This document shows, in pieces, positions 685 through 25,513 of a DNA stretch of 64,000 nucleotides. The DNA comes from Proteiniphilum saccharofermentans (GTDB lineage Bacteria > Bacteroidota > Bacteroidia > Bacteroidales > Dysgonomonadaceae), in assembly GCF_900095135.1 (NCBI RefSeq), contig NZ_LT605205.1:4154001-4218000 (forward strand). The letters are read 5' to 3'. The translations under genes were made by a program, and so were the position numbers. Numbering within the stretch: the first letter of the stretch is position 1; every line of letters begins with the position of its first letter. The notes under the pieces were generated by a model. That model was given only the letters and a program-made list of their open reading frames with translations, did not search any database and was not told where the DNA came from.

Positions 685-709
685 GATTACGAATAGCCGG
701 TCTCCGACA

Positions 710-9200: not shown

Positions 9201-10379
9201 GACCAATCCGCTTCCGTTTGTGCCGACCCAGATACTTCCTTTTTCATCTTTAATAATGGAATTTACATCGGGTTTGAAGTTATCTACCTTTTTGAAATAA
9301 TTGAGATGTTCAATGCCGAATTTGTAAATACTTTCGCTGTAGTAAGATATTCCGTTTTTATAGGTGCCGATCCAGATGATACCTGTATTGTCGGGATAAA
9401 TACAATTAATGCTGTTGTGCGCAATGCTTCGTTTGTCGTAAGGCAGGTTCCGCAAATTTGTCAACGTGTTGGTTTTTTTATCGATAATATCTATTCCCCC
9501 ATGGTCGGTTGCCATCCAGATCAGCCCGTTGGGATCCTGGATAATATCCTGGATCATGTCACTTGACAATAAAAATGGAAAGTCACTTTGTTTTGATCCC
9601 AGATGCTTCCATTCTTTTTGCCGGGAATGGTATAACCAGGTTCCAAGCGGTATATCGGAATAGATCCATACGTCGTTGTCTGCGTCGACAAAGGCCTGAT
9701 AATTATGGGCATTGCCTTTCTGTTGTTGTTGAATGTAGTTGTCTGTATAAGTGATCCGTAAACTGCTTTTGTCCATATATTGAATAAGGCCGGATTGAAA
9801 AACAAACAGATAACTCTCTTCCGCTTCTTTTATATCGGTAATAATCCCGCTGCTTAATTGTCCCGTTTGCCCGTTTTGAGGGAAGAATACCGATTTGCCT
9901 GTATCCGGCTGGTACTTGTAAAATCCGAATGAATTTGCATAACACCACATATTTTTATCTTTATCGATAAAGATAAGATCGACCGGCTTTGTTATGCCCA
10001 TTTCATTTAACAGAATCTGACTCCTTTCGAATTTTTCTTTGTCGGGATTGAACACTACGTATCCATCAGCTGTATGGATCCAAAGCCGTCCGTTTATATC
10101 TTCCTGTACATTGCTGACCCAATTATCCGGTAATGAATAATTGTCACTCGGATTGTGAAAAAACACTTTAAATTTATATCCATCATACCTGTTTAAACCC
10201 GATGCGGTGGAGAACCACATAAAACCTTTACTGTCTTTGAAAATATGATTAATTTGATTATGGGAAAGTCCGTCACGAACCTCCAGTTGTTTAAAGAGAA
10301 ATGAAGATTGTCCCCAAAGAGATGGGTGACACCAGAGAAAAATGGGAAAAAGTAAAATAAGACGGAATAATCTCTTCAT
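6216..10379 (-). CDS. Hybrid two-component system (HTCS) sensor-regulator
   Basis: The 1387-residue protein carries a whole two-component pathway in one chain. A signal peptide (about 1-24) is followed by a periplasmic two-component propeller region with repeated 'W.GT..GL..', 'IWIGT' and 'D..G.IW' units to about residue 740. A Y_Y_Y domain (about 745-805) and one membrane helix (about 812-834) come next. The HisKA domain has His871 in SHELRTPLT, and the HATPase domain has NLLSNAIKF and GSGIGLHIV. A receiver domain with Asp1176 (IIISDVMMPEMDG) and a C-terminal AraC-type DNA-binding domain (about 1270-1365) complete it. HTCS proteins sense a glycan fragment in the periplasm and activate the adjacent utilisation genes, here GH31, GH2 and SusC. 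IS copy 1 sits about 90 bp upstream of its start. Confidence 0.96.
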   Translation of the reverse strand: MKRLFRLILLFPIFLWCHPSLWGQSSFLFKQLEVRDGLSHNQINHIFKDSKGFMWFSTASGLNRYDGYKFKVFFHNPSDNYSLPDNWVSNVQEDINGRLWIHTADGYVVFNPDKEKFERSQILLNEMGITKPVDLIFIDKDKNMWCYANSFGFYKYQPDTGKSVFFPQNGQTGQLSSGIITDIKEAEESYLFVFQSGLIQYMDKSSLRITYTDNYIQQQQKGNAHNYQAFVDADNDVWIYSDIPLGTWLYHSRQKEWKHLGSKQSDFPFLLSSDMIQDIIQDPNGLIWMATDHGGIDIIDKKTNTLTNLRNLPYDKRSIAHNSINCIYPDNTGIIWIGTYKNGISYYSESIYKFGIEHLNYFKKVDNFKPDVNSIIKDEKGSIWVGTNGSGLVRLDTKTGSYHIYSHDPSDNSSLTNNVIVSLCAAKNGKLWIGTYLSGMDCFDGKEFIHYRHDPNDPNSLANDNVWSIVEDRSGMIWIGTLGSGLQKLNPDNRQFTTFNNSTQQQLSSEYISSLFLGTNDKLILGTAIGITIFDIQTGHSEILMGNRKGDQSFTNLNVNQVYEDSRGLIWVGTREGLNIWDPKQDKITQLYKSDGLTDNVISGIIEDNQHNMWITTSNGVSNIIIHTDSKTDEYHLSFVNYSEVDGLQSHEFNLRSVFKSSDGEILLGGTNGFNIFNPKNIRYNTSQPKVLFTGLKLFNEDVLVGVEYNGNKILSSELNRVEEVTFKYGQNVFSVEFSAMNYVLPEKTTYAYMLEGFNTDWLLTDHGVHSVTYTNLAPGKYTLRVKAANSDGFWSEESTALQIRIKPPFWLSAGAYIFYAFLLISILLLARYMIIRNEQQKFKMKQIELEAQRKHEMDEMKLRFFTNVSHELRTPLTLIISPLENMMKSVADDHQKHQLSLIHKNAIRLLNMVNQLLDFRKSDVNEHSLNLSYGDIISFLKNSFTYFTEYAEKKNIRLTFFSSVDELRMVFDEDKMRKIMMNLLSNAIKFTEKNGTVDVLVKLLPKNGETDPEQIEIRIIDTGIGIKDDEKKRIFERFYQGKTKNEDFPGSGIGLHIVKEFISICKGTIHVYDNAPKGSMFVLQFPVDRLKYIVSQPEVTKEKQIENPGDVVSTGENDEAPERNEIRILLVDDNDDFRYFMKDTLKTEFSLLDASNGKEAWEKILEFSPDIIISDVMMPEMDGYELCEKVKNDVRTSHIPLILLTAHTAQEQELRGLETGADDYITKPFNFDILLLRINKILELRSYRQNRFKNQIKIEPAEITITPLDEKLIKNAIKLVEDNIDDSEFSVERLSKDLGISRVHLYKKMISVTGKSPIEFIRIIRLKRAAQLLRESQLNISEIAYQVGFNNPKSFSKYFKEEFDILPSQYQNNPSLYSDNKPETPL

Positions 10380-10433
10380 TGGTTCAATCTTTATACCGAA
10401 CAGTTTTCCTCAAATCACTGATTGTTTTCTTCA

Positions 10434-10441
10434 CAAACATA
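10434..10441 (-). promoter_or_regulatory. Candidate -7 box (TATGTTTG) for the HTCS gene
   Basis: On the minus strand TATGTTTG fits the Bacteroidota TAnnTTTG -7 element and lies about 55 bp before the HTCS start. A weak TTGT about 23 bp further upstream could be the -33 element. The IS copy 1 insertion point (10472) is just beyond it, so the core promoter appears to be spared. Confidence 0.5.
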
Positions 10442-10462
10442 ATAAAAAATTATTTGTTCTTT

Positions 10463-10471
10463 ATACAATTA
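10463..10471. repeat. 9-bp target duplication A (ATACAATTA), outer left flank of IS copy 1
   Basis: This sequence touches the left end of IS copy 1. Its partner is not at the other end of the same element. It is found, reverse-complemented, at 20719-20727 beside IS copy 2. Confidence 0.9.
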
Positions 10472-11782
10472 CACAAGTGTCCACTAAAAATTGGACACGG
10501 TTAAAAGTTGAATAAATTTAGTTCACTCGAACCATAGAGATCTTTGACATCATTGATATTCTTTTTGTCGAACAAGTCCCGCAAATGGGTCTTGTCGGTA
10601 AGCGAGATTCCAAGAATTTGAAGGACTTCGTAGATGCTGCGTTCCAATTTCATGCCGTGTTGAACTATTGCTACAAGGCAATAAGTAATTATTGCACAAT
10701 AGATTTGGACACGCACGGCATTCTCTGATGTACCCCAGAACTTCTTGATTCGGAGATGTTGCTTCACCCATTTGAAGAATAGTTCCACACTCCACCGATT
10801 GCGGTAAAGTTCCGAAATCAGAGAGGCCGTGGCTGTCAGATTATTGGTAAGAAAAATGTATTTGCTACCATCCTCAGGATCGATGCAAATCACCTTTCGC
10901 AGTTCCTCCGGATAAACCTTGGTGCTTTTATACACGGTGAAAGTGCCGACTATGTCGGAAACGATGCCTCGCGCAAGTCGCCTTTTCCAAGTTCTCGGCT
11001 TCATCTGGACGTTGTTTTTGGCTCTCAGAACGAAGAATCCTTTAGTGCGGTGAATAGTGTACAGGTTGCCGTAATCGTTGTAGCCGCGATCGAAAATATA
11101 ATGGGCCCCTGGCTCGTATGGTATCTCAAGCATAGCCTTGGAATCGTGTACGTTTGCCGGAGTAATATGCACGAAAGCAGGAACTTGAGCCTCTATATCG
11201 TAAAGCGTGTGCATCTTGATGCCGCCTTTATGCTTACGGAATTTAGCCCATTCGAACACCGACAGACACAGGTCAATCGTAGTCGAATCGAACGCATAGA
11301 CATGCCCTTCAAGCTCGAAGATTTTGTCAATCCGCCGCTTCCTTGCCTCGTTGATCATGAACTTGGCATAGTCCTCGAATATACGATAGTCGCGCTGCTC
11401 ATTAGCCTTGCTAAGATTGCTTCGGGTCACCGACTTTCCCATTCCAAGATGGTAAAGTTTGCCGCTATGCGCCTCGGTCGCTACAATTAGATCGCGGAGG
11501 CTTTCGCGGTTGGTCAGTTGCCCGAACATCATCGTAAGTAGCTGATTCCAACAGGTAAAGCTCTTGACGTATCTATCACCTTCATACTTGCGTACAAGGT
11601 AATTGAAGTGATTCCTATCCATGAACTGGACTAATTGGGAGAAAACGAATGGGTCTTTATGCATAACGGTCTGATTCTGACCGCAAAGATAAATTCAAAT
11701 CCGTTGACTCGAAAATCGGATACAATAAATTGAATATCAACAATTTCAAAGAACTATTATGATTTTTTAGTGGACACTAATG
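10472..11782 (-). mobile_element. IS4-family insertion sequence, copy 1 (1311 bp)
   Basis: The boundaries come from aligning this copy with the inverted copy at 20728-22038: identity begins and ends sharply and both are exactly 1311 bp. Both ends begin with CA and share the terminal inverted repeat core AGTGTCCACTAAAAA (CACAAGTGTCC at the transposase 3' side, CATTAGTGTCC at the 5' side). A 9-bp duplication and CA termini suit the IS4 family. One transposase gene fills the element. The flanking 9-mers of this copy do not match each other; each matches a flank of copy 2. Confidence 0.95.
10501..11664 (-). CDS. IS4-family DDE transposase (copy 1)
   Basis: The 387-residue transposase has a DUF4372-like N-terminus (FSQLVQFMDRNHFNYLVRKY) and a DDE transposase domain. 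Catalytic residues are Asp126 in YAFDSTTID, Asp192 in FDRGYND and Glu294. Glu294 lies in the IS4 signature Y-(2)-R-(3)-E-(6)-K, seen here as Y287, R290, E294 and K301. It is full length and identical in translation to the copy at 20846-22009. Neither copy shows a frameshift or stop, so both may be active. It catalyses movement of the element. Confidence 0.97.
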   Translation of the reverse strand: MHKDPFVFSQLVQFMDRNHFNYLVRKYEGDRYVKSFTCWNQLLTMMFGQLTNRESLRDLIVATEAHSGKLYHLGMGKSVTRSNLSKANEQRDYRIFEDYAKFMINEARKRRIDKIFELEGHVYAFDSTTIDLCLSVFEWAKFRKHKGGIKMHTLYDIEAQVPAFVHITPANVHDSKAMLEIPYEPGAHYIFDRGYNDYGNLYTIHRTKGFFVLRAKNNVQMKPRTWKRRLARGIVSDIVGTFTVYKSTKVYPEELRKVICIDPEDGSKYIFLTNNLTATASLISELYRNRWSVELFFKWVKQHLRIKKFWGTSENAVRVQIYCAIITYCLVAIVQHGMKLERSIYEVLQILGISLTDKTHLRDLFDKKNINDVKDLYGSSELNLFNF

Positions 11783-11791
11783 TTGTCAGTT
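11783..11791. repeat. 9-bp target duplication B, inner right flank of IS copy 1 (TTGTCAGTT)
   Basis: This is the reverse complement of AACTGACAA found at 22039-22047 on the outer side of IS copy 2. It does not match the left flank of its own element. Confidence 0.9.
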
Positions 11792-11835
11792 GTCAATTGA
11801 TAAAGTCTTGATTCTTGCGTCTAAAATAAAAAAAC

Positions 11836-14223
11836 ATGAATATAGCAGCCATTTTTCGTCGTCTTACGAAAAGTAAGTCTTTGCGCATCGTCAACCTGCT
11901 GGGGTTGTCAGTAATTTTTTCTTGTCTGCTCCTATCATATCAATATATCCGCAAAGAGTTGAGTTATGACCGTTTCAATGAAAACGCCGACCGGATCGTG
12001 CGGCTGTCTATACAATATGGAGACAAACCCATAGATGGACGACTCTATTTACAAGACGTGCAATCGGAACTGGAGAAGATTGCAGAAATTGATCAATTTG
12101 TATCCATCTCCAAAGCCAATACAGGTATATTGATTTATAAGGGCGAGAAACGGGTTATCAATGACTTTTATGCGGTTTCACCCAATTTTTTTGAAGTCTT
12201 CAGCTATTCCTTGATGATGGGTGAGCCTTCACATGTCCTGAAATCACCGGAGAGTATCCTTGTCAGCCAATCATTGGCAGAAGAACTATTAGGTGACGAA
12301 AATCCTATCGGAAAAGAACTCTCTCTGGAAGGACGAAGAGTAGATTCAAAGACTTTTTTTGTGAGTGGTGTTTTCAACGATTTTCCCGAGAACTCCCATT
12401 TTCATACCGATCTACTCTTTCACCGCAGAAATGATGTACCCGAATGGACATATGTTTACCTTTTACTGAATGACAACAACGACCTTTTACAAGTGAAAGA
12501 ACAGATTGAAGTCCACTATGACGCATTCGAAGATCTTCCGGAAAAGGCGACAGTTCATTTTATGCCACTGACCGATATCCACCTCCATAGCCGGGCACAA
12601 CGGGAAATGGAATTCAATGGAAATATCTATTATATCTATCTGATTGCAGGCGCCAATATCTTATTGCTGGTAGTGGTGCTTTTCAACTTATGGCTGAATC
12701 ACAGTCTGTTATTCTCTTATAACAATCGATATTATCAACTATTGAGGTTGAATGGCGCTGATGCTTCTACCATCTTTTATAACGAAGTGATACCGGCCTT
12801 TCTGATCGGGTTGCTCTCTATCCTACTTGGAGGAATGGCAGCCTACTATCTTGCGCCTATACTGCATTTCCCTACATTCAAGTTTTTGTCATATGGGACA
12901 TTAGGATTGACTCTCTGTTTCTTGGGACTAACCTTGTTTGTATCACTTATTCCCGCGCTGGCAAGCATCTCCTCCACGATGTTTATCAGTACCAAAAGTA
13001 GCCTTAGTCCGACACGTTTTTCCTTTACCAATATCCGGTATATGCTTGTGGTACAATACGCGATTGTGATATTTATCGTGATCATTTCATTCGGCATATC
13101 GAAACAGATCAACCTGATAAAAACAACGCAAGTCGGCGGTAAGACTGAGAATATTCTGGTGATTGAGGAACAACCCGAAGATGTAAAAGAACGCTACGAA
13201 CTATTGAAAACAGAACTCCTGAAACAACCTGAGATAGAGCAGGCCACTACTGCTTTTCAGTTGCCCGGCACCGCTATTCGCGATGGTGTCAGAGTTACAG
13301 TAGAAGGTAAAAGTGAACCTGTATCTCTGCCCCTTCTGTTGGTCGGCGAAGATTTTTTCTCTTTTTTCGGGATAAGACCCATTGCAGGAAAGGTGCTCTA
13401 TCCCTATAAAATGACTTATAAGGAAGAATTCGACATGTTGATGGATCACGTCATGGGCAAAGAAATCCCAACCGATTTAACGGAACAATATATGCTCAAC
13501 CGTAAAGCGCTCGGTATGCTGGGATTCAACTCACCGGAAGAGGCAATCGGGAAAACCATCCAATTCTCGCAAGGCACTCTCGATTATATCCACAAAGGCT
13601 CTATCTGCGGCGTAACCGATGATTTTACCTATATCAATATCTACGAAGAGTCCATCCCGCTATTGATCATGCAACGGCAAATGTTCCGGCACTGTTTTAT
13701 GCTGAAATTTGCGCCGGGTAAAGAGGAAGAAGGACTAAAGATATTCAACGAAGTATGGAACAAGGTAAATCCCGACTACCCTGCCAATTACAGTTTCCTA
13801 CAGGATGTATATGGGAAAGTCTATCGAAATGAGTTCAATGCCGGGCGGCTTGTTAACTTGTTCTCACTATTGTGCCTTATTATTGCCAACCTGGGATTGA
13901 TCATCTTTATGGCGTTTATCGTCAAACGGCGACGGAAAGAAATCGCCATCAGAAAAGTGAATGGAGCAGAACCCGGACAGATTATCCGGATGCTGAACAT
14001 GAGTTTCATTTACAGGATCATCATCGCTTTTATCATTGCCTCTCCACTTGCCTGGTGGGTGATGCAGCGATGGTTGGCCAACTTCGCCCATAAAACCACA
14101 CTGGACTGGTGGATATTCGCCCTGGCAGGCATTGCTGTACTGTTATTGTCGGTCGCTTCCGTATCGTGGCAAAGCTGGCGGGCATCCATACAAAATCCTG
14201 CAGAAGTGGTCAAGAGTGAATGA
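11836..14223 (+). CDS. MacB/FtsX-like ABC transporter permease, displaced member of the array
   Basis: The 795-residue protein has the duplicated MacB layout. There is an N-terminal helix (about 18-38), a first periplasmic core domain, then three helices at about 265-285, 315-340 and 355-380. A second N-terminal-type helix follows near 405-425, then a second core domain and three C-terminal helices from about residue 680. The coupling motif KEIAIRKVNGAEPGQI precedes the last helices. The C-terminus (NPAEVVKSE) resembles that of the permeases at 22166-35273. It is separated from them by dnaE and an IS, and only 53 bp part it from IS copy 1. Reversing the inferred inversion places it directly downstream of the 22166 permease on the same strand. 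No TAnnTTTG promoter is visible in its present upstream region, so it may now be poorly expressed. Confidence 0.9.
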   Translation: MNIAAIFRRLTKSKSLRIVNLLGLSVIFSCLLLSYQYIRKELSYDRFNENADRIVRLSIQYGDKPIDGRLYLQDVQSELEKIAEIDQFVSISKANTGILIYKGEKRVINDFYAVSPNFFEVFSYSLMMGEPSHVLKSPESILVSQSLAEELLGDENPIGKELSLEGRRVDSKTFFVSGVFNDFPENSHFHTDLLFHRRNDVPEWTYVYLLLNDNNDLLQVKEQIEVHYDAFEDLPEKATVHFMPLTDIHLHSRAQREMEFNGNIYYIYLIAGANILLLVVVLFNLWLNHSLLFSYNNRYYQLLRLNGADASTIFYNEVIPAFLIGLLSILLGGMAAYYLAPILHFPTFKFLSYGTLGLTLCFLGLTLFVSLIPALASISSTMFISTKSSLSPTRFSFTNIRYMLVVQYAIVIFIVIISFGISKQINLIKTTQVGGKTENILVIEEQPEDVKERYELLKTELLKQPEIEQATTAFQLPGTAIRDGVRVTVEGKSEPVSLPLLLVGEDFFSFFGIRPIAGKVLYPYKMTYKEEFDMLMDHVMGKEIPTDLTEQYMLNRKALGMLGFNSPEEAIGKTIQFSQGTLDYIHKGSICGVTDDFTYINIYEESIPLLIMQRQMFRHCFMLKFAPGKEEEGLKIFNEVWNKVNPDYPANYSFLQDVYGKVYRNEFNAGRLVNLFSLLCLIIANLGLIIFMAFIVKRRRKEIAIRKVNGAEPGQIIRMLNMSFIYRIIIAFIIASPLAWWVMQRWLANFAHKTTLDWWIFALAGIAVLLLSVASVSWQSWRASIQNPAEVVKSE

Positions 14224-14367
14224 TATAGTTAGGAGAAAACATATTTTATTTCCATAACGTTTAATTAATACTTTGGGAGGGAAAGTAAAATTATAAATCG
14301 TAGTATAGGGATTCTTTGTACAGTTTAAAAAAAATATTATCATTACAACCAATTAATTACGGATAAA

Positions 14368-14541
14368 ATGAGACGCCCCGAAATAGTACAGGCTATAAAA
14401 AAGGTTCTACAACGGATTGCTCCCGATGCAGAAGTAATTCTTTATGGCTCAGAAGCACGAGGCACCGCTTATGGGCTACCATATTTCTTCTTAGAATGCC
14501 TGAACCAATTAAAATCCCGGACGACATCAACAGTAGGGTAA
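14368..14541 (+). pseudogene. Minimal nucleotidyltransferase (MNT domain) fragment
   Basis: The 57-codon frame begins MRRPEIVQAIKKVLQRIAP and has the nucleotidyltransferase motif LYGSEARGTA. This matches small MNT-type proteins (antitoxins of HEPN-MNT pairs or solitary copies). The usual D-x-D segment after ARGTA is absent. After 'ARGTA' the reading becomes unrelated and overlaps the next fragment, so the gene was cut here. No HEPN partner is nearby. Confidence 0.6.
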
Positions 14542-14921
14542 TATTATCTACGGATACAAGGGTTTATGAGCTTTCCGCACTTCCCGAGAAAATAAAGGTA
14601 AACATAACAAACAATACAAATGATACAATCTCGACGGGAGCACGATATCATATTGAATTCTTTGATCACGACTAGTGTCTATGGCGAAAATTGTCTTTGC
14701 CGAAATCTGTAACTCATAACAACAAAGAGTATATATTGATATTTACCGACATAGAATACACACTAAATCCAGGTGCGTCGACAAATGTTGAACAAGGACA
14801 CTTCAACCATTGGAATTTCTTTTCAAAAGGTAGACATACAATTGTCATGGAGTACATAAAACCTGATTTTAAGAGAACCAATGAGAAATACAAAACGTAT
14901 GCGGAATTCTATATCGAATAG
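14496..14921 (+). pseudogene. Bacterial Ig-like domain protein remnant with in-frame amber codon
   Basis: One reading frame runs from ATG 14496 to a stop at 14919-14921, interrupted by a single TAG at 14673-14675. On both sides the frame reads like one protein (SALPEKIKVNITNNTND before, WRKLSLPKSVTHNNKEY after). This has the pattern of small Ig-like lipoproteins of Bacteroidota. The signal peptide is missing because the 5' end is fused to the nucleotidyltransferase fragment. A sequencing error or point mutation could explain the TAG. I treat it as a degraded gene; the family assignment is tentative. Confidence 0.5.
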
Positions 14922-14991
14922 CCATATGAAACGAACATGAAAAATGATTGCATTTTTACAAGTTATAAAAATGACCAACCCCGAAATATAG

Positions 14992-15060
14992 GATTATAAT
15001 CGAAAAATTAGGCGTAAATTACAGATTATAATCGAAAAATTAGGCGTAAATTTTCGATTA
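14992..15060. repeat. Tandem 29-bp repeat plus inverted repeat upstream of the AAA ATPase gene
   Basis: Positions 14992-15020 and 15024-15052 are identical 29-mers with a 32-bp period. Each starts with the palindrome GATTATAATC. The second copy also forms an inverted repeat with the following sequence: TAATCGAAAA at 15029-15038 against TTTTCGATTA at 15051-15060. The structure ends 14 bp before a TAnnTTTG box, where an operator would sit. It could equally be a repeat carried with this gene family. Confidence 0.75.
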
Positions 15061-15074
15061 GCAATATTTTTTAT

Positions 15075-15082
15075 TACTTTTG
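15075..15082 (+). promoter_or_regulatory. Candidate -7 box (TACTTTTG) for the AAA ATPase gene
   Basis: TACTTTTG matches TAnnTTTG and lies 20 bp before the ATG at 15103. The -33 region falls inside the inverted repeat at 15029-15060. Confidence 0.6.
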
Positions 15083-15102
15083 AGTCTAAAAAATTATGGA
15101 TT

Positions 15103-16242
15103 ATGACTCACCGGGATTTAGAACAAAATATTTTAGATGCATGCTTTAAAGGTAAGATTATATTACTTTTAGGAGCACGTCAGGTGGGGAAAACAACACT
15201 ACTCAAAGAGATTTTATCTAAAATCGATGTTTCCCATGTCTGGTTGAATGTAGATGAAGCTGATATTTTGCAGGCTTTTGAAACGGCAACTACCAGCACA
15301 CAACTCCTACAACTTATTGGGAAAAAGAACAGACTGGTTGTCATGGACGAAGCCCAACAGATTTCAGATATTGGCAAGAAATTAAAATTGATTTACGACA
15401 CCGACCCTGAGATACAGATTATTGCTACCGGATCCTCCTCTTTTGATTTGCAAAATAAAATGGCAGAACCTCTCACGGGAAGAAAGAGAACATTTTATCT
15501 CTATCCTCTTAGTTATAAGGAGATATCAAGAGGACAATCAATTCTGGAAGCAAAAAGACTCTTAGACACACGACTGATTTTTGGTTCGTATCCTGAAGTA
15601 GTAAACAATCCGGGGGATGAAAAGAGTATACTTATTGAGATAGCTAACAGTTACCTCTACAAAGATATTCTTAAACTGGATAATATCCGTAAACCTACAC
15701 ATATAGAAAAACTCCTACAGGCTTTGGCTTTTCAAGTTGGGAGCGAAGTCAGCTACAACGAACTGTCCAGAATAATCGGTAATATAGATACTGCAACAAT
15801 TGAGAAATACCTTGATTTACTGGAAAAAGCATTTATAATATTTAAATTACCTGCGTTAAGTAGAAACCTGCGCAATGAAATCAAAAAAGGTAAGAAATAT
15901 TACTTTTATGACAACGGCATACGCAATGTACTTATAAACAACTTCGCGGGTATTGATTTTAGGCAAGACAAAGGGGCTTTGTGGGAAAACTTCCTGATTG
16001 CTGAACGGATAAAAAACAATCACTATCAGGGACGATATGCCAATACATACTTTTGGCGTACGCATGATAAAGCGGAAATTGATTATATCGAAGAAGAAGA
16101 CGGAGTGCTAAACGCTTTCGAATTGAAGTGGAGAACACAAAAAGTAAATTTTGCCAACTCCTTTCTGGAAGCATATCCAAATAACAAGACAGAGGTAATC
16201 AGTCGAGAGAATTTTGAAGAATTCGTAATGAACAAACTCTAA
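15103..16242 (+). CDS. AAA-family ATPase with C-terminal DUF4143
   Basis: The 379-residue protein has Walker A GARQVGKTT (residues 24-32) and Walker B LVVMDEA (78-84). An ATP-domain sensor segment (IIATGSSSF) and a C-terminal DUF4143 region (about 200-350, including YFYDNGIRNVL and KAEIDYIEEEDG) follow. The late part resembles a restriction-endonuclease-like fold core. Family members are widespread solitary genes in Bacteroidota and archaea, and their function is unknown. It stands alone, with its own promoter and a peculiar repeat upstream, beside decayed gene fragments. That suggests an accessory insertion between the ABC permease and dnaE. A weak ATCCCG/CGGGAT hairpin follows the stop (16244-16268) but lacks a T-run. 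Confidence 0.9.
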   Translation: MTHRDLEQNILDACFKGKIILLLGARQVGKTTLLKEILSKIDVSHVWLNVDEADILQAFETATTSTQLLQLIGKKNRLVVMDEAQQISDIGKKLKLIYDTDPEIQIIATGSSSFDLQNKMAEPLTGRKRTFYLYPLSYKEISRGQSILEAKRLLDTRLIFGSYPEVVNNPGDEKSILIEIANSYLYKDILKLDNIRKPTHIEKLLQALAFQVGSEVSYNELSRIIGNIDTATIEKYLDLLEKAFIIFKLPALSRNLRNEIKKGKKYYFYDNGIRNVLINNFAGIDFRQDKGALWENFLIAERIKNNHYQGRYANTYFWRTHDKAEIDYIEEEDGVLNAFELKWRTQKVNFANSFLEAYPNNKTEVISRENFEEFVMNKL

Positions 16243-16479
16243 AATCCCGGAATGAAACTTTTCGGGATCTAACGCTATACTTAAACTCCCACCTTTACCG
16301 TAAATATTTCGAGTATGGAAGAAAATTCTTAGTTCTTCGCTCTTAGTTCTGATATTTGGTAATTTACAAAAATAGATGTCATCACCCGTTGATAACTTCT
16401 GACAATAACTCCACTAACCTTGGCCGATTTTCCGTATATTTGTAGAATATAGGATGTGCCTCAGGTAAGCTAAAACAAG

Positions 16480-16511
16480 TTTGGCTTACCTTTCGGCTTT
16501 CGCTATATTTG
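16480..16511 (+). promoter_or_regulatory. dnaE promoter: TTTG, 20 bp, TATATTTG
   Basis: The -33 TTTG (16480-16483) and -7 TATATTTG (16504-16511) are separated by 20 bp, the expected Bacteroidota spacing. A second TATATTTG lies at 16435-16442 without a good -33. The promoter overlaps the 5' extension of the longest open frame, so translation must begin at the ATG at 16547. The 304-bp gap 16243-16546 shows only these boxes and the weak hairpin after the ATPase gene. Confidence 0.7.
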
Positions 16512-16546
16512 CCCTACTCAGATATAAAAATAAATCGACTAAATAT

Positions 16547-19500
16547 ATGTATCCGTTTGTACATCTACACGTTCACTCGCAGTACTCGCTGCTCGACGGG
16601 CAGGCAAGCATACAGCGCCTGATTGATAAAGCCGTGGGAGACGGTATGAAAGCGCTGGCGCTGACCGACCACGGTGCCATGTACGGCATCAAGGAATTCC
16701 TCAATTATGCTGCCAGGAAAAATGCTCCGGTAAACGCAGAAATAAAAAAAATAAAGAGCGAGATAAGCGATCTGGAGAAGAAAGGGGAAAGTGGAGAGAA
16801 GATCGGGCAACTCCGTCAAAAACTCACCGAGACGGAAAACAAGCTTTTTAAACCGATAGTGGGGTGCGAATGCTACGTGGCACGCCGTAACCGCCACCTG
16901 CAGTCGGAGAAGATCGACGGAAGCGGGTGGCATCTGGTCGTGCTCGCCAAGAACCTGCAAGGGTATAAAAACCTTATCAAGATGGTCTCCAAGAGCTGGA
17001 CCGAAGGGTTTTATTACCGTCCACGTATCGATAAGGAACTGTTGGAACAATACCACGAAGGACTGGTCGTCTCCTCAGCCTGCCTTGGCGGTGAAATCTC
17101 CCGGAAAATCGACAGCGGACAGATACAGGAAGCTGAAGAGGCGGTACAGTGGTTCAAAGGCATTTTCGGTGAAGATTACTATATAGAACTCCAACGACAT
17201 AAGACCGACAGGGTTGATGCCGACCAGACCACCTACCCCAAACAGGAGAGGGTGAATCAGGAACTGATCCGTATCGCCAGGAAATATGATGTGAAGATAA
17301 TCGCGACCAACGACGTCCATTTCGTGAATGAAGAAGATGCCGATGCACACGACCGGCTGATCTGTCTGAGTACCGGAAAGGATTTTGATGACCCCAACCG
17401 GATGCGATATACCAAGCAGGAGTGGTTAAAAACTACAGCCGAGATGAACCGTATCTTTGCTGATATCCCGGAAGCGTTGACCAACACGCTAGAGGTAGCG
17501 GCCAAAATAGAGTCCTACTCCATAGACCACGCTGCACTGATGCCTTTCTACCCTATTGACCCTACATTCGGTACCGAAGAGATTTATAAACAAAAATATT
17601 CAGAAAGGGAATTGATCGAAGAATTCGGCGAAGCCAATTTCCATCGCCTGGGAGGCTATGATAAAGTGATTCGTATCAAGTTGGAAGCCGACTATCTTGC
17701 ATATCTTACTAAAAAAGGTGCTCAAAAAAGATATGGAGATACGCTCTCTCCGGAAGTAGAGGAGCGACTCGAATTCGAATTGGAGACCATAAAGACTATG
17801 GGTTTTCCCGGCTACTTCCTGATCGTGCAGGATTTTATCAGTGCGGCCCGGGAAATGGATGTGGCTGTCGGCCCGGGACGTGGATCGGCCGCGGGATCAG
17901 CGGTAGCCTACTGTTTAAGGATCACCGATATCGACCCGCTGAAATATAATCTCCTGTTCGAACGTTTCCTGAACCCCGACCGAATTTCGATGCCTGATAT
18001 CGATATCGATTTCGATGATGAAGGCCGAGGGAAAGTGCTGCGCTGGGTGACGGAAAAATATGGCAGTGAGAAGGTAGCTCATATCATTACCTACGGTACG
18101 ATGGCGACCAAATCGTCTATCCGGGATGTGGCACGTGTACACAAGTTACCTTTGTCCGAATCGAACCGGCTTGCCAAACTCGTGCCCGATAGGATACCTA
18201 ACGTCAAAAAAATCAACCTGAAAGCAGCAATCGAGAATGTGCCTGAGCTGCAAGAGGCCGCCCAAAGTAACGATCCGCTGGTAAAAAGCACTCTGAAGTA
18301 TGCCGGAATGCTCGAGGGGAACGTACGAAGCACGGGCGTGCATGCCTGCGGTGTAATCATCGGCCAGACTGACATCTCTGATGTGGTCCCCATCAGTACG
18401 GCAGAAGATAAAGAGACCAAAGAGAAACTGTTGGTAACACAATATGAAGGGTCTGTGATCGAGGAGACAGGATTGATCAAGATGGACTTCCTTGGATTGA
18501 AAACCCTCTCCATTATTAAAGATGCGGTTTCCATCATCGAACAGAACCGAGGTATAAAAGTGGATATCGATGCCATCGATATGAACGATGAGACTACTTA
18601 CAAGCTTTATTGCAACGGACAGACCACCGGTACCTTCCAGTTTGAGTCGGCAGGTATGCAAAAGTATCTCAAAGAATTGCAACCCAGTAAGTTTGAAGAC
18701 CTGATAGCGATGAATGCCCTCTACCGTCCGGGTCCAATGGACTATATCCCTTCTTTTGTGGCCCGTAAGCACGGCAGGGAGGAGATTGCGTACGACATCC
18801 CTATCATGGAGAAATACCTGGATGAGACCTACGGAATTACTGTCTATCAGGAACAGGTGATGCTCCTGTCCCGTTTGCTCGCCAATTTCACTCGTGGACA
18901 ATCGGATGAGTTGCGTAAGGCGATGGGAAAGAAGCTGATCGACAAGATGACGGCGCTGAAGGAAAAATTCATCGCAGGAGGTACTAAAAATGGGTATGAT
19001 GCCAAAGTGCTCAACAAGATATGGAATGACTGGGAAAAATTCGCATCCTACGCTTTCAATAAATCGCACGCAACCTGTTATTCGTGGGTAGCTTACCAGA
19101 CAGCATGGCTCAAAGCCAATTACCCGTCGGAATACATGGCGGCGGTACTCTCCAATAACCTGAACAACATTACAGAAATCACCAAGTTCATGGATGAGTG
19201 TATGGCGATGGGCATCAAAGTATTACCACCCGACGTGAATGAGTCGATGCTGAAATTCTCTGTCAACGATGCAGGTGATGTCCGTTTCGGATTAGCAGCC
19301 ATTAAGAGTGTGGGACAAAATGCGGTAAACGATATCATTGCAGAACGTAAGCAGAACGGCCGCTATAAAGACATTTTCGATTTTGTGGAACGAGTGAACC
19401 TCTCTTCCTGTAATAAAAAGAATATCGAAGCGTTAGCAATGGCCGGGGCCTTTGACTCTTTCCCGGGCATCCAAAGGGAACAATTTGTAGCGCAGAACAA

Positions 19501-20290
19501 TAAGGGTGAGGATTTTCTGGAGACCCTCATCCGTTACGGCAATAAATACCAACAAGACAAGATTGAAGCAATGAATTCGCTCTTCGGCGACGATACCTCT
19601 TTCCAGATAGCCCGTCCCGAAATACCCCAGGCTGCCCGTTGGTCGGATCTGGAAAGGCTGAACAAAGAACGGGAACTGATTGGTATCTATTTATCGGCAC
19701 ACCCGTTAGATGAATATGAGTTTATTCTCAAGTATGTATGTAATGCCGACACACAGCAATTACAGGATCTCGATTCGCTCAATGGGAAAGATATCACCTT
19801 TGGTGGTATCGTCACAGCAGTACGCGAGGGACAAACCAAAAGAGGCTCGCCTTACACTATCTTCAAACTGGAAGATTATGCCGGTAAGTATGAGATCGCA
19901 CTTTTCAGTGAAGACAGTGTAAACTTCGGCAGATACGCACGTATCGGACTCTCTATCTATATTGAGGGGAAAGTACAACCCAAACGTTACCGGGAGGGAG
20001 AGATGGAAGTAAAAATATCCTCCATTTCCCTGTTATCCGAAGTGAAAGACAAGCTGGTGTCGAAGATCACTCTGCAAATTCCTCTTTCAGAAATAGATGA
20101 CACCTCCGTGGCTGAATTATCGGCACTTGTAAAAAACAATTCCGGAAATTCATTGTTATATTTCCAAATTATTGGTGAAGAACCACACATGAGAATTCAG
20201 CTGTTTTCACGACCAGCCAAAATTCAAGTAAATAAAAGATTCATCGATTACTTAAAGAATAACTTATCTATCGACTTTAAAATCAACTAA
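16547..20290 (+). CDS. dnaE: DNA polymerase III subunit alpha
   Basis: This is the replicative polymerase, 1247 residues from the ATG at 16547. The frame stays open upstream to a TTG at 16481, but that part overlaps the promoter and does not look like DnaE. The PHP domain begins at once (FVHLHVHSQYSLLDG). It carries a charged coiled-coil insertion at about residues 52-95 (KKIKSEISDLEKKGESGEK) before CECYVARR. The polymerase active site includes GPGRGSAAGS and MPDIDIDFDDEGR. Later come the helix-hairpin-helix region and a C-terminal OB fold (ITFGGIVTAVREGQ). The thioredoxin gene follows after 25 bp and probably shares the transcript. In the inferred ancestral arrangement both genes were on the opposite strand. 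Confidence 0.97.
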   Translation: MYPFVHLHVHSQYSLLDGQASIQRLIDKAVGDGMKALALTDHGAMYGIKEFLNYAARKNAPVNAEIKKIKSEISDLEKKGESGEKIGQLRQKLTETENKLFKPIVGCECYVARRNRHLQSEKIDGSGWHLVVLAKNLQGYKNLIKMVSKSWTEGFYYRPRIDKELLEQYHEGLVVSSACLGGEISRKIDSGQIQEAEEAVQWFKGIFGEDYYIELQRHKTDRVDADQTTYPKQERVNQELIRIARKYDVKIIATNDVHFVNEEDADAHDRLICLSTGKDFDDPNRMRYTKQEWLKTTAEMNRIFADIPEALTNTLEVAAKIESYSIDHAALMPFYPIDPTFGTEEIYKQKYSERELIEEFGEANFHRLGGYDKVIRIKLEADYLAYLTKKGAQKRYGDTLSPEVEERLEFELETIKTMGFPGYFLIVQDFISAAREMDVAVGPGRGSAAGSAVAYCLRITDIDPLKYNLLFERFLNPDRISMPDIDIDFDDEGRGKVLRWVTEKYGSEKVAHIITYGTMATKSSIRDVARVHKLPLSESNRLAKLVPDRIPNVKKINLKAAIENVPELQEAAQSNDPLVKSTLKYAGMLEGNVRSTGVHACGVIIGQTDISDVVPISTAEDKETKEKLLVTQYEGSVIEETGLIKMDFLGLKTLSIIKDAVSIIEQNRGIKVDIDAIDMNDETTYKLYCNGQTTGTFQFESAGMQKYLKELQPSKFEDLIAMNALYRPGPMDYIPSFVARKHGREEIAYDIPIMEKYLDETYGITVYQEQVMLLSRLLANFTRGQSDELRKAMGKKLIDKMTALKEKFIAGGTKNGYDAKVLNKIWNDWEKFASYAFNKSHATCYSWVAYQTAWLKANYPSEYMAAVLSNNLNNITEITKFMDECMAMGIKVLPPDVNESMLKFSVNDAGDVRFGLAAIKSVGQNAVNDIIAERKQNGRYKDIFDFVERVNLSSCNKKNIEALAMAGAFDSFPGIQREQFVAQNNKGEDFLETLIRYGNKYQQDKIEAMNSLFGDDTSFQIARPEIPQAARWSDLERLNKERELIGIYLSAHPLDEYEFILKYVCNADTQQLQDLDSLNGKDITFGGIVTAVREGQTKRGSPYTIFKLEDYAGKYEIALFSEDSVNFGRYARIGLSIYIEGKVQPKRYREGEMEVKISSISLLSEVKDKLVSKITLQIPLSEIDDTSVAELSALVKNNSGNSLLYFQIIGEEPHMRIQLFSRPAKIQVNKRFIDYLKNNLSIDFKIN

Positions 20291-20315
20291 TAAATAATAA
20301 CAAAAAAGACAAATT

Positions 20316-20630
20316 ATGGCGCTTCAAATTACAGATGCAACCCTTGACTCAGTATTGGATACAGACAAACTGGTGGTCATAGATTTCTGGGCTGAATGGT
20401 GCGGCCCCTGCAAAATGATCGGACCCATCATCGAAGAGATCGGTGAAGAATACAAGGATAAAGTGGTTGTGGGCAAACTGAATGTGGATGAGAACGACGA
20501 AACTACCGGCAAATACGGAATCCGCAATATCCCTACCGTGCTTTTCATTAAAAACGGAAAAGTGGTGGACAAACTGGTAGGTGCAGGCCCCAAAACCCTT
20601 TTTACTGAGAAAATCGATAAGTTAGTATAA
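20316..20630 (+). CDS. trxA: Thioredoxin
   Basis: The 104-residue protein has the thioredoxin fold and active site W28-C-G-P-C32 (FWAEWCGPCK). The cis-proline region NIPTVLFIKNG is also present. It has no signal peptide, so it is a cytoplasmic disulfide reductant. It lies 25 bp after dnaE and is followed by an intrinsic terminator. The dnaE-trxA neighbourhood makes it a normal housekeeping copy. Confidence 0.97.
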   Translation: MALQITDATLDSVLDTDKLVVIDFWAEWCGPCKMIGPIIEEIGEEYKDKVVVGKLNVDENDETTGKYGIRNIPTVLFIKNGKVVDKLVGAGPKTLFTEKIDKLV

Positions 20631-20650
20631 ATAAACTATTTATATTATTA

Positions 20651-20687
20651 AAAAAATATCCCGGCATAAATTGTCGGGATTTTTTTG
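20651..20687 (+). terminator. Intrinsic terminator after trxA
   Basis: A stem built from ATCCCGGCA and TTGTCGGGAT is flanked by an A-run and followed by seven T, so it could work in both directions. It ends the dnaE-trxA transcript. Confidence 0.8.
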
Positions 20688-20718
20688 TTAATAACAGAGT
20701 CTGTATCAAAATTTTAAA

Positions 20719-20727
20719 TAATTGTAT
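20719..20727. repeat. 9-bp target duplication A' (TAATTGTAT), inner left flank of IS copy 2
   Basis: This is the exact reverse complement of ATACAATTA at 10463-10471, the outer flank of IS copy 1. Together they show exchange of flanks between the two elements. Confidence 0.9.
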
Positions 20728-22038
20728 CATTAGTGTCCACTAAAAAATCATAATAGTTCTTTGAAATTGTTGATATTCAATTTATTGTATCCGATTTTCG
20801 AGTCAACGGATTTGAATTTATCTTTGCGGTCAGAATCAGACCGTTATGCATAAAGACCCATTCGTTTTCTCCCAATTAGTCCAGTTCATGGATAGGAATC
20901 ACTTCAATTACCTTGTACGCAAGTATGAAGGTGATAGATACGTCAAGAGCTTTACCTGTTGGAATCAGCTACTTACGATGATGTTCGGGCAACTGACCAA
21001 CCGCGAAAGCCTCCGCGATCTAATTGTAGCGACCGAGGCGCATAGCGGCAAACTTTACCATCTTGGAATGGGAAAGTCGGTGACCCGAAGCAATCTTAGC
21101 AAGGCTAATGAGCAGCGCGACTATCGTATATTCGAGGACTATGCCAAGTTCATGATCAACGAGGCAAGGAAGCGGCGGATTGACAAAATCTTCGAGCTTG
21201 AAGGGCATGTCTATGCGTTCGATTCGACTACGATTGACCTGTGTCTGTCGGTGTTCGAATGGGCTAAATTCCGTAAGCATAAAGGCGGCATCAAGATGCA
21301 CACGCTTTACGATATAGAGGCTCAAGTTCCTGCTTTCGTGCATATTACTCCGGCAAACGTACACGATTCCAAGGCTATGCTTGAGATACCATACGAGCCA
21401 GGGGCCCATTATATTTTCGATCGCGGCTACAACGATTACGGCAACCTGTACACTATTCACCGCACTAAAGGATTCTTCGTTCTGAGAGCCAAAAACAACG
21501 TCCAGATGAAGCCGAGAACTTGGAAAAGGCGACTTGCGCGAGGCATCGTTTCCGACATAGTCGGCACTTTCACCGTGTATAAAAGCACCAAGGTTTATCC
21601 GGAGGAACTGCGAAAGGTGATTTGCATCGATCCTGAGGATGGTAGCAAATACATTTTTCTTACCAATAATCTGACAGCCACGGCCTCTCTGATTTCGGAA
21701 CTTTACCGCAATCGGTGGAGTGTGGAACTATTCTTCAAATGGGTGAAGCAACATCTCCGAATCAAGAAGTTCTGGGGTACATCAGAGAATGCCGTGCGTG
21801 TCCAAATCTATTGTGCAATAATTACTTATTGCCTTGTAGCAATAGTTCAACACGGCATGAAATTGGAACGCAGCATCTACGAAGTCCTTCAAATTCTTGG
21901 AATCTCGCTTACCGACAAGACCCATTTGCGGGACTTGTTCGACAAAAAGAATATCAATGATGTCAAAGATCTCTATGGTTCGAGTGAACTAAATTTATTC
22001 AACTTTTAACCGTGTCCAATTTTTAGTGGACACTTGTG
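20728..22038 (+). mobile_element. IS4-family insertion sequence, copy 2 (1311 bp, inverted relative to copy 1)
   Basis: It has the same length, termini and transposase as the copy at 10472-11782, in opposite orientation. Inverted repeats are AGTGTCCACTAAAAA near both ends. The left flank pairs with copy 1's left flank and the right flank with copy 1's right flank, both as reverse complements. Confidence 0.95.
20846..22009 (+). CDS. IS4-family DDE transposase (copy 2)
   Basis: The translation is identical to the 387-residue transposase at 10501-11664, with D126, D192, E294 and the YREK signature intact. The lack of any difference suggests recent duplication or gene conversion. The two transposase genes point outward from the 8.9-kb segment between the elements. 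Confidence 0.97.
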   Translation: MHKDPFVFSQLVQFMDRNHFNYLVRKYEGDRYVKSFTCWNQLLTMMFGQLTNRESLRDLIVATEAHSGKLYHLGMGKSVTRSNLSKANEQRDYRIFEDYAKFMINEARKRRIDKIFELEGHVYAFDSTTIDLCLSVFEWAKFRKHKGGIKMHTLYDIEAQVPAFVHITPANVHDSKAMLEIPYEPGAHYIFDRGYNDYGNLYTIHRTKGFFVLRAKNNVQMKPRTWKRRLARGIVSDIVGTFTVYKSTKVYPEELRKVICIDPEDGSKYIFLTNNLTATASLISELYRNRWSVELFFKWVKQHLRIKKFWGTSENAVRVQIYCAIITYCLVAIVQHGMKLERSIYEVLQILGISLTDKTHLRDLFDKKNINDVKDLYGSSELNLFNF

Positions 22039-22047
22039 AACTGACAA
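22039..22047. repeat. 9-bp target duplication B (AACTGACAA), outer right flank of IS copy 2
   Basis: It pairs with the reverse-complemented copy at 11783-11791. Joined to the sequence upstream of the 11836 permease it regenerates a continuous intergenic stretch of TTGACAA/CTGACAA words, like those elsewhere in the array. Confidence 0.9.
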
Positions 22048-22165
22048 TGGATAATTGACAATGAATTGCAAATCGGCGTTGTCAAATCTTGACTTCTTCA
22101 CTTCTCAACTTCAGACTTCTCTTCTAATTAGTCTCATTGGCATATTGATCCATTGGCACATTGAA

Positions 22166-24493
22166 CTACTCTCCCTTCAATGATTCCACGGGGTTGGCAC
22201 GAGCAGCTTTCCACGTCATATAGCTTACCGAAACCAGTGTGAGTAAAAGCACTGCCAGTCCGGCAACGACAAATACCCACCATGAAAGTTCAATCTTATA
22301 GGAGAAATCTTCGAACCACTTCGTCATCACATAATAAGCGACGGGGCAGGCGATCACAAAAGCGATAGCCACTCTCTTCAGAGAATCCCGGTTAAGCAAG
22401 AGCATCACCTCCTCTTCGGTAGCGCCATTGATCTTACGCAAGGCGATTTCCTTCTCCTTCTGTCGGATCAGGTAAAGCGACATGGCGAATACCCCCATTA
22501 CCATAATGATAATGGTCAGTAAGGTAAAGGCACTCATGATAGATGACATTTTCAGTACGCTTTCATAATTCTGCTGAATTCCCTCATCTACAAACCGGGC
22601 ATTGAACAGTTCGCCCTCGGTATACTGGATATATTCTTTTTCGACACGTTTTGCGGTAGCGTAATAATCGGTTCCCGGTGTCATCTTTACGATGATATGC
22701 TGTGGTTCTTCATTCCATAGTCGCCACCGTATCCGGAGTTGGCTATAATCCCTATAGAGGTTTCGTATCTTGAAATCGCTAAAGATGCCAGCGATCTCCA
22801 CTTGATTCTCATTACCCCAAGGGCGGAATGTTTGTGTGACAGAATCCACTTCTACGGCCTTGTAGCCGCTTCTGTTCAACCAGTAGAAGATGTTTTTCGA
22901 GGGTGTAATTCCGGTCGGCTCAATTGTGATTCCATATATCTGCAGAAAGGCAGAGTCGATACGAAATTCTTGGAAGCTATAGTGCTGTTCGTTATCGGTG
23001 TATGAGTAATTCTCTCCGCCGTTGAGAGGTGTACCGCTTGAGAATGACACCAACTCCACCCCCGGAATTCCCAAAAGTTTTGATTTAAAGCCATCTATCT
23101 GCTTTACACCCAATCCCGTATTGGATATTTCCAGAATGCCCTCACGGTTGTAACCCATGTCGTAGTTGATCAGAAAAACGGATTGCTGCTGGATAAAGAT
23201 TGCACAGATAAGCAATGCTGTAGCGACTGTATATTGAAATATGATTAGTCCTTTTGAGTAGGACGATTTTACTTTTCTGGAGAAGGTTCCTTTCACCACT
23301 TCGAGTGGGTTGAAGTTGGAGATGATCAGGGCCGGGATGATACCTGCCAAGAACGAAACAATAAGTAGAAACAGGATAGATGCCGCTATCATGGACGGGG
23401 TAAACTGATGCGCCAGATCGAGTGTGGTGTTCAGTACGTTGTTGAAGAATGGCTCTGCAAGGAACGCCAGCAGTAGGCCCGCCAGAAAGGTGATAGTGGT
23501 TATCAGCAGTGATTCGGCAAGCAATTGGGATACCAGATTGGCTTTGCTGCTTCCCAATAGCTTTTTGATGGCAGACTCCTTTCCACGGAATCCTGCTTGT
23601 GCTACCGTGAGGTTGATATAATTCAGGAGGGCAATCACCAATACTAGAATGGCGATAGCCATATAGATGGTGATAGTGCTCCTACTATTCAAATGCAGAT
23701 CATTGAACCCCGACCTTTCTGCTTTGAAATAGGCCTCTTTGAGCGGCATAAATTCCAGGTCGTCGGAATAGCCATCTCTGAAATACCAGAACTCCTCTTT
23801 GAATAACTTGAGCAACATCGGGGCTTTTGAAGGAAGATCCGTTCCAGGCCTTGTCAGGAAGAACATGTTAAATCCGAAATTGTTGGGCGTTTCGAGAATC
23901 TGATCATCCCAAAAGATCGTGATGGAGTTATAGTTTGCGACAAAATCGGCTTTGAGCAGGATGGAGTTTACCGGCATATCCTCCATAATGCCGGTAATGG
24001 TATGCTCTTCGTCGCTGATGAACAGGCTTTTGCCAACCGGATTTTCCGAGCCGAATATTTTGGCGGCGAAAGTCCGGGTTATCACCACGCTCTTACGAGC
24101 TTCCAACACCCGCTCCGGATCTCCTTCGATAAGCGGGAAAGAAAAAATGCGGAAGAAGGTGGAATCGGCAAACAGTGCCTGTGCCTCAACCTTATCATTC
24201 CCTTTCTGTCCTATCGCCAGGGAACGGGAGTGTATCCGCGCAAAAGATTCCACCTCCGGTGCATTGTCCCTCACGTACTGTGCTATCGTATTTCCGAAGG
24301 GAGCCTGCTTGTCGTGTGTCATCAGGAAGATACGGTCTTTGTTTTCTTGAAAATCATCAGTCGATAATTCCTGCTTGACGTACAATCCCAGAATGATGAC
24401 GAACATCAACGAGATGGAAAAGCCTACGATCGAAACAAACGTGTAGAGTTTGTTTCGCGACAGGAATTTCAGATAGGTTTTTAAGTTGGGCAT
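22166..24493 (-). CDS. MacB/FtsX-like ABC transporter permease
   Basis: The 775-residue protein has the duplicated MacB plan. A first helix (about 15-36) and periplasmic core domain lead to helices near 275-297, 325-345 and 370-395. A second half follows, with a core domain and final helices near 665-690, 715-735 and 745-765. The coupling motif KEIALRKINGATEEEVM would contact an ATPase. Such proteins form mechanotransmission-type ABC systems rather than classic pores. The C-terminus is NPVESLKGE. It lies 101 bp downstream of the only ATPase of the array. Before the inversion the permease at 11836-14223 followed it. The substrate is unknown. Confidence 0.92.
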   Translation of the reverse strand: MPNLKTYLKFLSRNKLYTFVSIVGFSISLMFVIILGLYVKQELSTDDFQENKDRIFLMTHDKQAPFGNTIAQYVRDNAPEVESFARIHSRSLAIGQKGNDKVEAQALFADSTFFRIFSFPLIEGDPERVLEARKSVVITRTFAAKIFGSENPVGKSLFISDEEHTITGIMEDMPVNSILLKADFVANYNSITIFWDDQILETPNNFGFNMFFLTRPGTDLPSKAPMLLKLFKEEFWYFRDGYSDDLEFMPLKEAYFKAERSGFNDLHLNSRSTITIYMAIAILVLVIALLNYINLTVAQAGFRGKESAIKKLLGSSKANLVSQLLAESLLITTITFLAGLLLAFLAEPFFNNVLNTTLDLAHQFTPSMIAASILFLLIVSFLAGIIPALIISNFNPLEVVKGTFSRKVKSSYSKGLIIFQYTVATALLICAIFIQQQSVFLINYDMGYNREGILEISNTGLGVKQIDGFKSKLLGIPGVELVSFSSGTPLNGGENYSYTDNEQHYSFQEFRIDSAFLQIYGITIEPTGITPSKNIFYWLNRSGYKAVEVDSVTQTFRPWGNENQVEIAGIFSDFKIRNLYRDYSQLRIRWRLWNEEPQHIIVKMTPGTDYYATAKRVEKEYIQYTEGELFNARFVDEGIQQNYESVLKMSSIMSAFTLLTIIIMVMGVFAMSLYLIRQKEKEIALRKINGATEEEVMLLLNRDSLKRVAIAFVIACPVAYYVMTKWFEDFSYKIELSWWVFVVAGLAVLLLTLVSVSYMTWKAARANPVESLKGE

Positions 24494-24594
24494 ATCCTTT
24501 AATTGACAATTGACAGTTGACAGTTGACAATGAAGGAGTATTATCCCTTGTGCAAGGAGATAACTTGTCGACTGCCGGTTGCCATAGGTTTATA

Positions 24595-25269
24595 TTACAT
24601 CTGCACCTCAGTGACGATTTGTCCGTCGAACAGATTGACGATGCGGTGTGCGAACGAGGCATCGTGTTGTGAGTGGGTTACCATCACGATGGTGGTTCCT
24701 TCCCTGTTGAGTTCGGTGAGCAGATCCATCACATCCTTCCCGTTTTTCGAGTCGAGGTTACCGGTTGGCTCATCGGCAAGAATCAGCTTGGGATTAGCGA
24801 TGACGGCGCGGGCAATGGCTACACGTTGCTGCTGACCACCCGAAAGCTGGTTGGGAAAATGTCCCGCACGGTGGCTGATATTCATGCGACGAAGCACTTC
24901 CTCCACCCGTTTCTTGCGTTCCGATGCTTTTACTTTGAGATAGGTAAGCGGTAACTCCACATTTTCATATACGGTCATCTCTTCGATCAGGTTAAAACTT
25001 TGGAACACAAAACCAATTTTGCCCTTACGGGTCTGCGTGCGTTCTTTTTCTTTAAGATGCCCTACCTCCTTATTGTCGAGCCAATATTCGCCCGATGTGG
25101 GATTATCCAGTAGCCCGAGGATATTCAGCAGGGTGGATTTACCACAACCCGACGGTCCCATGATGGCCACAAATTCACCCTCTTTTACTTCCATTGAGAT
25201 ATTGTTCAACGCGATGGTTTCTACCTCTTCCGTACGGAATACTTTTCTTAAATCGTTAATCTTAATCAT
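24595..25269 (-). CDS. ABC transporter ATP-binding protein, MacB/LolD type
   Basis: The 224-residue ATPase has Walker A GPSGCGKST, the signature LSGGQQQRVAIARA, Walker B LILADEPTGNLDS and the switch His in VTHSQHD. It is a stand-alone nucleotide-binding domain of the LolD/MacB/FtsE group, which pairs with FtsX-like permeases. It is the only ATPase among the permease genes here, so it probably serves several of them. The 244-bp gap upstream (25270-25513) holds a purine-rich stretch and one TCCCGATTTATCGGGA palindrome, but no obvious promoter. Confidence 0.95.
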   Translation of the reverse strand: MIKINDLRKVFRTEEVETIALNNISMEVKEGEFVAIMGPSGCGKSTLLNILGLLDNPTSGEYWLDNKEVGHLKEKERTQTRKGKIGFVFQSFNLIEEMTVYENVELPLTYLKVKASERKKRVEEVLRRMNISHRAGHFPNQLSGGQQQRVAIARAVIANPKLILADEPTGNLDSKNGKDVMDLLTELNREGTTIVMVTHSQHDASFAHRIVNLFDGQIVTEVQM

Positions 25270-25475
25270 AATTGCTGCTTTTTTATTTTAGAAATTATTT
25301 GTTGGAATTTTCTTAAGAACGAGAACAAAGTCAAGTCTGAAGTGAAGAAGTGGGAAGGTGGGAGAGTGGGAAAGTAAGAAAGTAGAGTAGAGAAACCCAA
25401 CTCTCCAACCCAATATCCCAAATTCTTCACATTATATATTTTCATCATTAACCACATTAAGCACTACACTACTTG

Positions 25476-25491
25476 TCCCGATTTATCGGGA
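25476..25491. repeat. REP-like palindrome TCCCGATTTATCGGGA, copy 1
   Basis: It has a 7-bp stem and 2-nt loop. It is embedded in ACTTG-palindrome-TTGGCACATTAGTC, a composite also found near 30382 and 32914. It lies between permease gene and ATPase gene. Confidence 0.8.
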
Positions 25492-25513
25492 TTGGCACAT
25501 TAGTCTTATTAGT

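Follow-up and report, generated by a model that had tools for sequence, protein, structure and literature searches.

Exchanged target-site duplications at two inverted IS4-family elements bounding dnaE and trxA in Proteiniphilum saccharofermentans

Overview

We found two identical 1311-bp insertion sequences (IS) in opposite orientation around dnaE and trxA in a 64,000-nucleotide stretch of the Proteiniphilum saccharofermentans genome (4,414,963 bp in all), here called the window. The two copies have exchanged halves of their 9-bp target-site duplications exactly, one of the two insertion sites is present in empty form in the closest relative, and the genes between them have the uninverted order in the relatives that retain the neighborhood. 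Our preferred explanation, to which we assign a probability of about 0.7, is that two ordinary insertions were followed by homologous recombination between the IS copies in the cell. A recently acquired IS4-family (IS4Sa-like) element would have inserted twice by cut-and-paste, in opposite orientations, once at site A in the HTCS-trxA interval, duplicating ATACAATTA, and once at site B in the permA-permB interval, duplicating TTGTCAGTT/AACTGACAA. The identical 1311-bp copies would then have undergone homologous recombination and so inverted the intervening 8945 bp, and by that step each IS would have been left with one half of each duplication. The exchange of the duplications, the identity of the copies, the empty site A and the gene order of the relatives are observed; from them we infer that the step was recombination between the two copies, and that it took place in the cell rather than during assembly. 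If so, this is a clean IS-bounded inversion in which the duplications identify the copies that took part in the exchange, and one empty site is visible at the base level in a close relative. The features are collected in Table 1.

Table 1. Features at and around the inverted segment, in window coordinates
Feature	Position	Strand	Remark
HTCS, hybrid two-component regulator	6216..10379	-	ancestral trxA neighbor in G021 and G007
Target-site duplication A, outer copy, 9 bp, ATACAATTA	10463..10471	+	abuts IS copy 1; single copy at the G021 joint
IS4-family element copy 1, transposase 10501-11664, 387 aa	10472..11782	-	identical to copy 2
Target-site duplication B, inner copy, 9 bp, TTGTCAGTT	11783..11791	+	abuts IS copy 1
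Inverted segment: permA, DUF4143 ATPase, dnaE, trxA	11783..20727	.	dnaE and trxA opposed to the transporter array, unlike 4/4 informative relatives (16 examined)
permA, MacB/FtsX-type permease severed from its array	11836..14223	+	
AAA ATPase with DUF4143	15103..16242	+	no match near dnaE among 16 relatives
dnaE, DNA polymerase III alpha subunit	16481..20290	+	
trxA, thioredoxin	20316..20630	+	
Terminator-like stem 3' of trxA	20658..20680	+	
Target-site duplication A, inner copy, 9 bp, TAATTGTAT	20719..20727	+	abuts IS copy 2
IS4-family element copy 2, transposase 20846-22009, 387 aa	20728..22038	+	
Target-site duplication B, outer copy, 9 bp, AACTGACAA	22039..22047	+	abuts IS copy 2
permB, array permease	22166..24493	-	ancestral permA neighbor in G021 and G007

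Exchanged target-site duplications

A preliminary description of this DNA had reported two 1311-bp IS4-type copies in opposite orientation, neither with a direct repeat of its own, and four flanking 9-mers that make up two exchanged duplications; all of this was reproduced, down to the coordinates. The 1311-nt arms are inverted, 100% complementary and 8945 nt apart. The outer left 9-mer, ATACAATTA, pairs as a reverse complement with the inner right one, TAATTGTAT, and the inner left 9-mer, TTGTCAGTT, pairs in the same way with the outer right one, AACTGACAA. From the base composition, a single pair of 9-mers would match as reverse complements by chance with probability 4.4e-6, and two pairs with 1.9e-11; a draw of 200,000 random 9-mer pairs from the window gave no match.

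The genome contains 14 matches to the IS, of which five are full-length and all 100% identical, and nine are partial, at 66-71%. As a control, the five full-length copies were oriented alike and every left 9-mer was compared with every right 9-mer (n=25). Four comparisons gave 9/9 matches. Two of them are the exchanged pairs, and the other two come from the copies at 960321 (L004) and 854071 (L005), each of which still has its own 9-bp duplication intact. The other 21 comparisons reached at most 6/9. By their sequences, L004 and L005 look like simple insertions, the usual product of this IS.

A gene-bearing segment bounded by two inverted copies of one IS also has the look of a composite transposon, in which the 8.9-kb segment would have arrived together with both copies. 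Such an arrival is excluded because the outer flanks, ATACAATTA and AACTGACAA, are unmatched as direct repeats, and synteny likewise refutes it, dnaE-trxA lying between the same neighbors in two relatives (G021 and G007, described below); we give it next to no chance.

The remaining full-length copy, L003 (G000 3581235-3582545), is without a target duplication, and its flanks match those of none of the other four full-length copies. L003 was ruled out as a partner in the window inversion on account of these unlike flanks. The right flank of L003 resembles G021 at 96%. For the left flank, three of four relatives have no match and G021 has one of only 27 bases; the 2 kb upstream in G021 has one partial match in this genome, of 385 bases at 69%. 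The sequences make an adjacent deletion or replacement likely at this copy.

Site B (11783-11800 and 22039-22064) falls within a degenerate TTGACAAT-type tract. Short TTGACAAT-like stretches were seen at eight other places in the genome, among the 40 of 52 candidates that were scored.

The two sites in related genomes

Among 40 relatives compared by dnaE, the closest is G021, whose DnaE protein is 98% identical. Window positions 1-10471 align forward to 4806-15275 of the G021 locus L045, and window positions 16526-20727 align in reverse to 19466-15267 of the same locus, so that the two alignments share exactly 9 bp, which is the target. When the IS is removed and the site A flanks of the window are joined, they match G021 over 617 bp at 96%, with one ATACAATTA at the joint. 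The G021 joint is the empty site A at the base level. The same joint in G007 aligns at 79% over 662 columns and retains 8/9 target bases. HTCS adjoins trxA in only these two of the 16 relatives examined for gene order. Flipping the segment had been predicted to join the trxA terminator to the HTCS upstream region, and in G021 the 3' side of trxA and that region are contiguous across one 9-bp target, as they are in G007 at 79%. The terminator-like stem stays with trxA.

The 16 relatives comprised 15 of the 40 dnaE relatives and locus L057, from the best 80 of 590 matching stretches in a scan of genome contigs. Matches with E >1e-20, those shorter than a quarter of the query length and weaker overlapping ones were dropped; the HTCS match of G007 was absent after this filter and was taken from the direct alignments instead. 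The transporter array lies beside dnaE in four of the 16 (G021, G007, G012 and G010), each time with dnaE, trxA and the array on one strand. The other 12 showed trxA-dnaE only and are uninformative for the orientation of the array. None of the four informative relatives has the order now found in the window, where dnaE, trxA and permA are turned against both sides. Because dnaE, trxA and the array share a strand in 4/4 informative relatives, the present orientation is, on this comparison of sequences, the derived one. Alignment with relatives, which had been suggested as a check on the inversion, has come out with the uninverted order in every informative genome (4 of the 16) and with joint A at the base level in G021 and G007.

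In G021 and G007 permA adjoins permB on the same strand, with spacers of about 245 and 131 bp, respectively. The further claim that a flip returns the permease at 11836 to its array is borne out by these neighbors, by gene order only, and the ancestral joint at site B is supported to the same extent. Divergence of the permA-permB spacer in G021 and G007 is too great for an empty site B to be shown at the base level, and in seven scanned stretches of G021, G007, G012 and G010 TTGTCAGTT occurs once, elsewhere (L051 10650). At the array position G012 is without permB, and G010 is without permA and permB.

The IS is at neither site in G021 and G007, as judged from the bases of joint A and from the permA-permB spacers, and no IS match was found near dnaE in G010 or G012, with up to 10 candidates scored per genome.

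The interval between permA and dnaE (14224-16480) is variable. Here it contains the gene for the AAA ATPase with DUF4143, along with two tandem repeats of 32 bp (14992-15055). Its length is 2.3 kb in G021, 3.5 kb in G012 and only about 75 bp in G007, with no DUF4143 gene match in these three. In G012 (L051 3435-5433) permA was matched in two pieces, as if frameshifted or misassembled. In the array itself (window 22166-39207), MacB/FtsX-type permeases are accompanied by an ATPase and an adaptor protein, together with a sensor kinase paired with a sigma-54-type regulator; the array's matches to darobactin-exporter models were under the cut-offs of those models.

Identity of the element and the route to the inversion

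As set out in the parts of PMC2266710 used here, IS4-family elements have a single-ORF DDE transposase with D(60-110)D(100-150)E spacing and a YREK motif and are described as cut-and-paste; subgroup IS4Sa (table 1 of that paper) has ends of the form CA......T, a length of 1150-1750 bp and a duplication of 8-10 bp. Each copy in the window has a single 387-aa ORF on the transposase strand. A Pfam scan of the copy 1 transposase gave DDE_Tnp_1 and DUF4372, and the copy 2 transposase matched the NCBIfam IS4 family model NF033592 with 248.8 bits against a cut-off of 115. Residues D126, D192 and E294 are separated by 65 and 101 residues, inside the range for the family, and the YREK motif, Y(2)R(3)E(6)K, is found as YRNRWSVELFFKWVK at residue 287. 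The target duplication is about one helix turn, being 9 bp at L004, at L005 and in the exchanged pairs, with none at L003. The IS ends, CATTAGTGT and CACAAGTGT, fit the CA......T ends of IS4Sa. By family model and motifs, the element is a member of the IS4 family, and its length, ends and duplication size fit an IS4Sa-like element.

Some match to the IS was found in 16 of 39 genomes of the genus, this genome counted, with up to 10 candidates scored per genome. At the same depth of scoring, the best full-length match in the 38 other genomes was 68% identical, and partial matches outside this genome reached 88% over 40 bases. The arrival of the IS looks recent, since the copies in the genome are fully identical and no close full-length copy was found outside it.

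The preliminary description had placed two mechanisms side by side: two insertions followed by recombination between the copies, or one intramolecular replicative transposition. Both do yield the observed pattern, but the first is the likelier one, since cut-and-paste is the mode described for the IS4 family (PMC2266710). In the second route, a single IS at one site would have attacked the other site in trans, so that one duplicative intramolecular transposition would have produced a second, inverted copy and inverted the DNA between. The trace would be the same as that of an IS6 inversion, which is bracketed by two inverted copies that each have one original and one target flank (PMC7986276, in the part relevant here), and after the first insertion one event would be needed rather than two. 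However, this route is described for replicative elements, whereas the present IS belongs to the IS4 family by model, YREK motif and 9-bp duplication, and the simple appearance of the insertions at L004 and L005 also speaks against it. To our knowledge, a cut-and-paste element could reach a duplicative inversion only by joining the ends of sister copies. We regard this route as quite unlikely. Recombination and duplicative transposition are not separable by sequence alone since no intermediate was found: no relative or strain turned up with both insertions in the uninverted order, nor with a single IS at one site.

Assembly of the identical repeats

The exchange pattern is exact, as had been claimed, but its description as proof of an inversion was too strong, because a wrong join by the assembler leaves the same duplications and the same conflict with relatives. 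The chromosome could truly be ancestral in orientation, or mixed, if the assembler had joined unique pieces through the wrong copies of an identical 1311-bp repeat. According to the portion of PMC5684752 drawn on here, the probable source genome, P. saccharofermentans M3/6T (LT605205), was assembled from short-read 8-kb mate-pair Illumina MiSeq data with GS de novo Assembler and in silico gap closure, which leaves room for such an error, and the identity of the five full-length copies is what a collapsed consensus would also yield. On the other hand, a 1.3-kb repeat is short enough to be spanned by 8-kb mate pairs, so that the order should be resolvable from the data described, PCR-based gap closure is mentioned for the genomes of that paper in general, and two further copies of this IS were joined with perfect duplications. 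We rate an assembly error as unlikely because mate pairs of this size can cross the repeat. No second assembly of the same species was present among the best 80 of 590 matching stretches, from which the window's own records may be excluded.

What the pattern establishes is that an exchange inside the IS separates the two orientations, and not that the exchange happened in a cell. This is a warning for other genomes, in that exchanged duplications by themselves do not reveal whether a segment is truly inverted or was misjoined across identical repeats.

Replication direction and possible consequences

GC skew was summed over 41 unevenly spaced stretches, 40 of 20 kb and the window, and had its minimum at the 4.32 Mb stretch and its maximum at the 2.25 Mb stretch. 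This coarse skew suggests an origin near the record start; the minus strand would therefore be co-directional with replication in the window, and dnaE, trxA and permA perhaps head-on. On such a reading the inversion may have turned these three genes from co-directional to head-on. Against it, the skew tracks the coding strand from one stretch to the next, its sign is reversed in several of them, and dnaA is at 0.51 Mb. Five DnaA-family model matches with identical scores and 270-aa frames were also seen (G000:C1:1447186, 1767292, 2051624, 3623920 and 3884289), which we presume to be IstB-like ATPases of another IS. Local GC skew is positive in the inverted segment and negative in parts of the flanks. 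It was set aside as evidence of a flip because skew follows the coding strand in the window.

G021 and G007 have permA after permB, at the array end. Insertion at site B alone already separates permA from permB, and inversion adds the change of strand. With the essential gene dnaE turned, possibly to head-on, and a permease parted from its array, the arrangement could carry a cost. We think it quite unlikely that living cells go on inverting the 8.9-kb segment, so that they would alternate between dnaE co-directional with replication (permA at the array end) and dnaE head-on. If it did, the IS pair would be an accidental, recombination-driven switch of the orientation of an essential replication gene.

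Comparison with known systems

A full-text literature search gave no report of an IS-linked inversion in Proteiniphilum, so this instance may be unreported. In kind the inversion is ordinary and of the textbook type. Recombination between identical ISs is a recognized cause of missing duplications (PMC11708052), and the cases of that paper's own, in the portion considered here, are deletions and one duplication, with no inversions.

The element resembles IS4Sa in its 1311-bp length, CA......T ends, 9-bp duplication and YREK motif. The duplicative inversions of IS6/IS26 end in the same arrangement, in which the copies are inverted and each has one flank from either of the two sites, and differ in that the IS6 duplication is 8 bp (PMC7986276, as far as that source was used), whereas this element is of the IS4 family and has 9 bp. 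The closest likeness in process, under the preferred explanation of two insertions and recombination, is to inversions by IS-IS recombination, which have inverted identical copies at both ends and duplications that are lost from each copy and exchanged between them; the present case differs from these in the host, the IS and the genes carried only, and the mechanism is the same.
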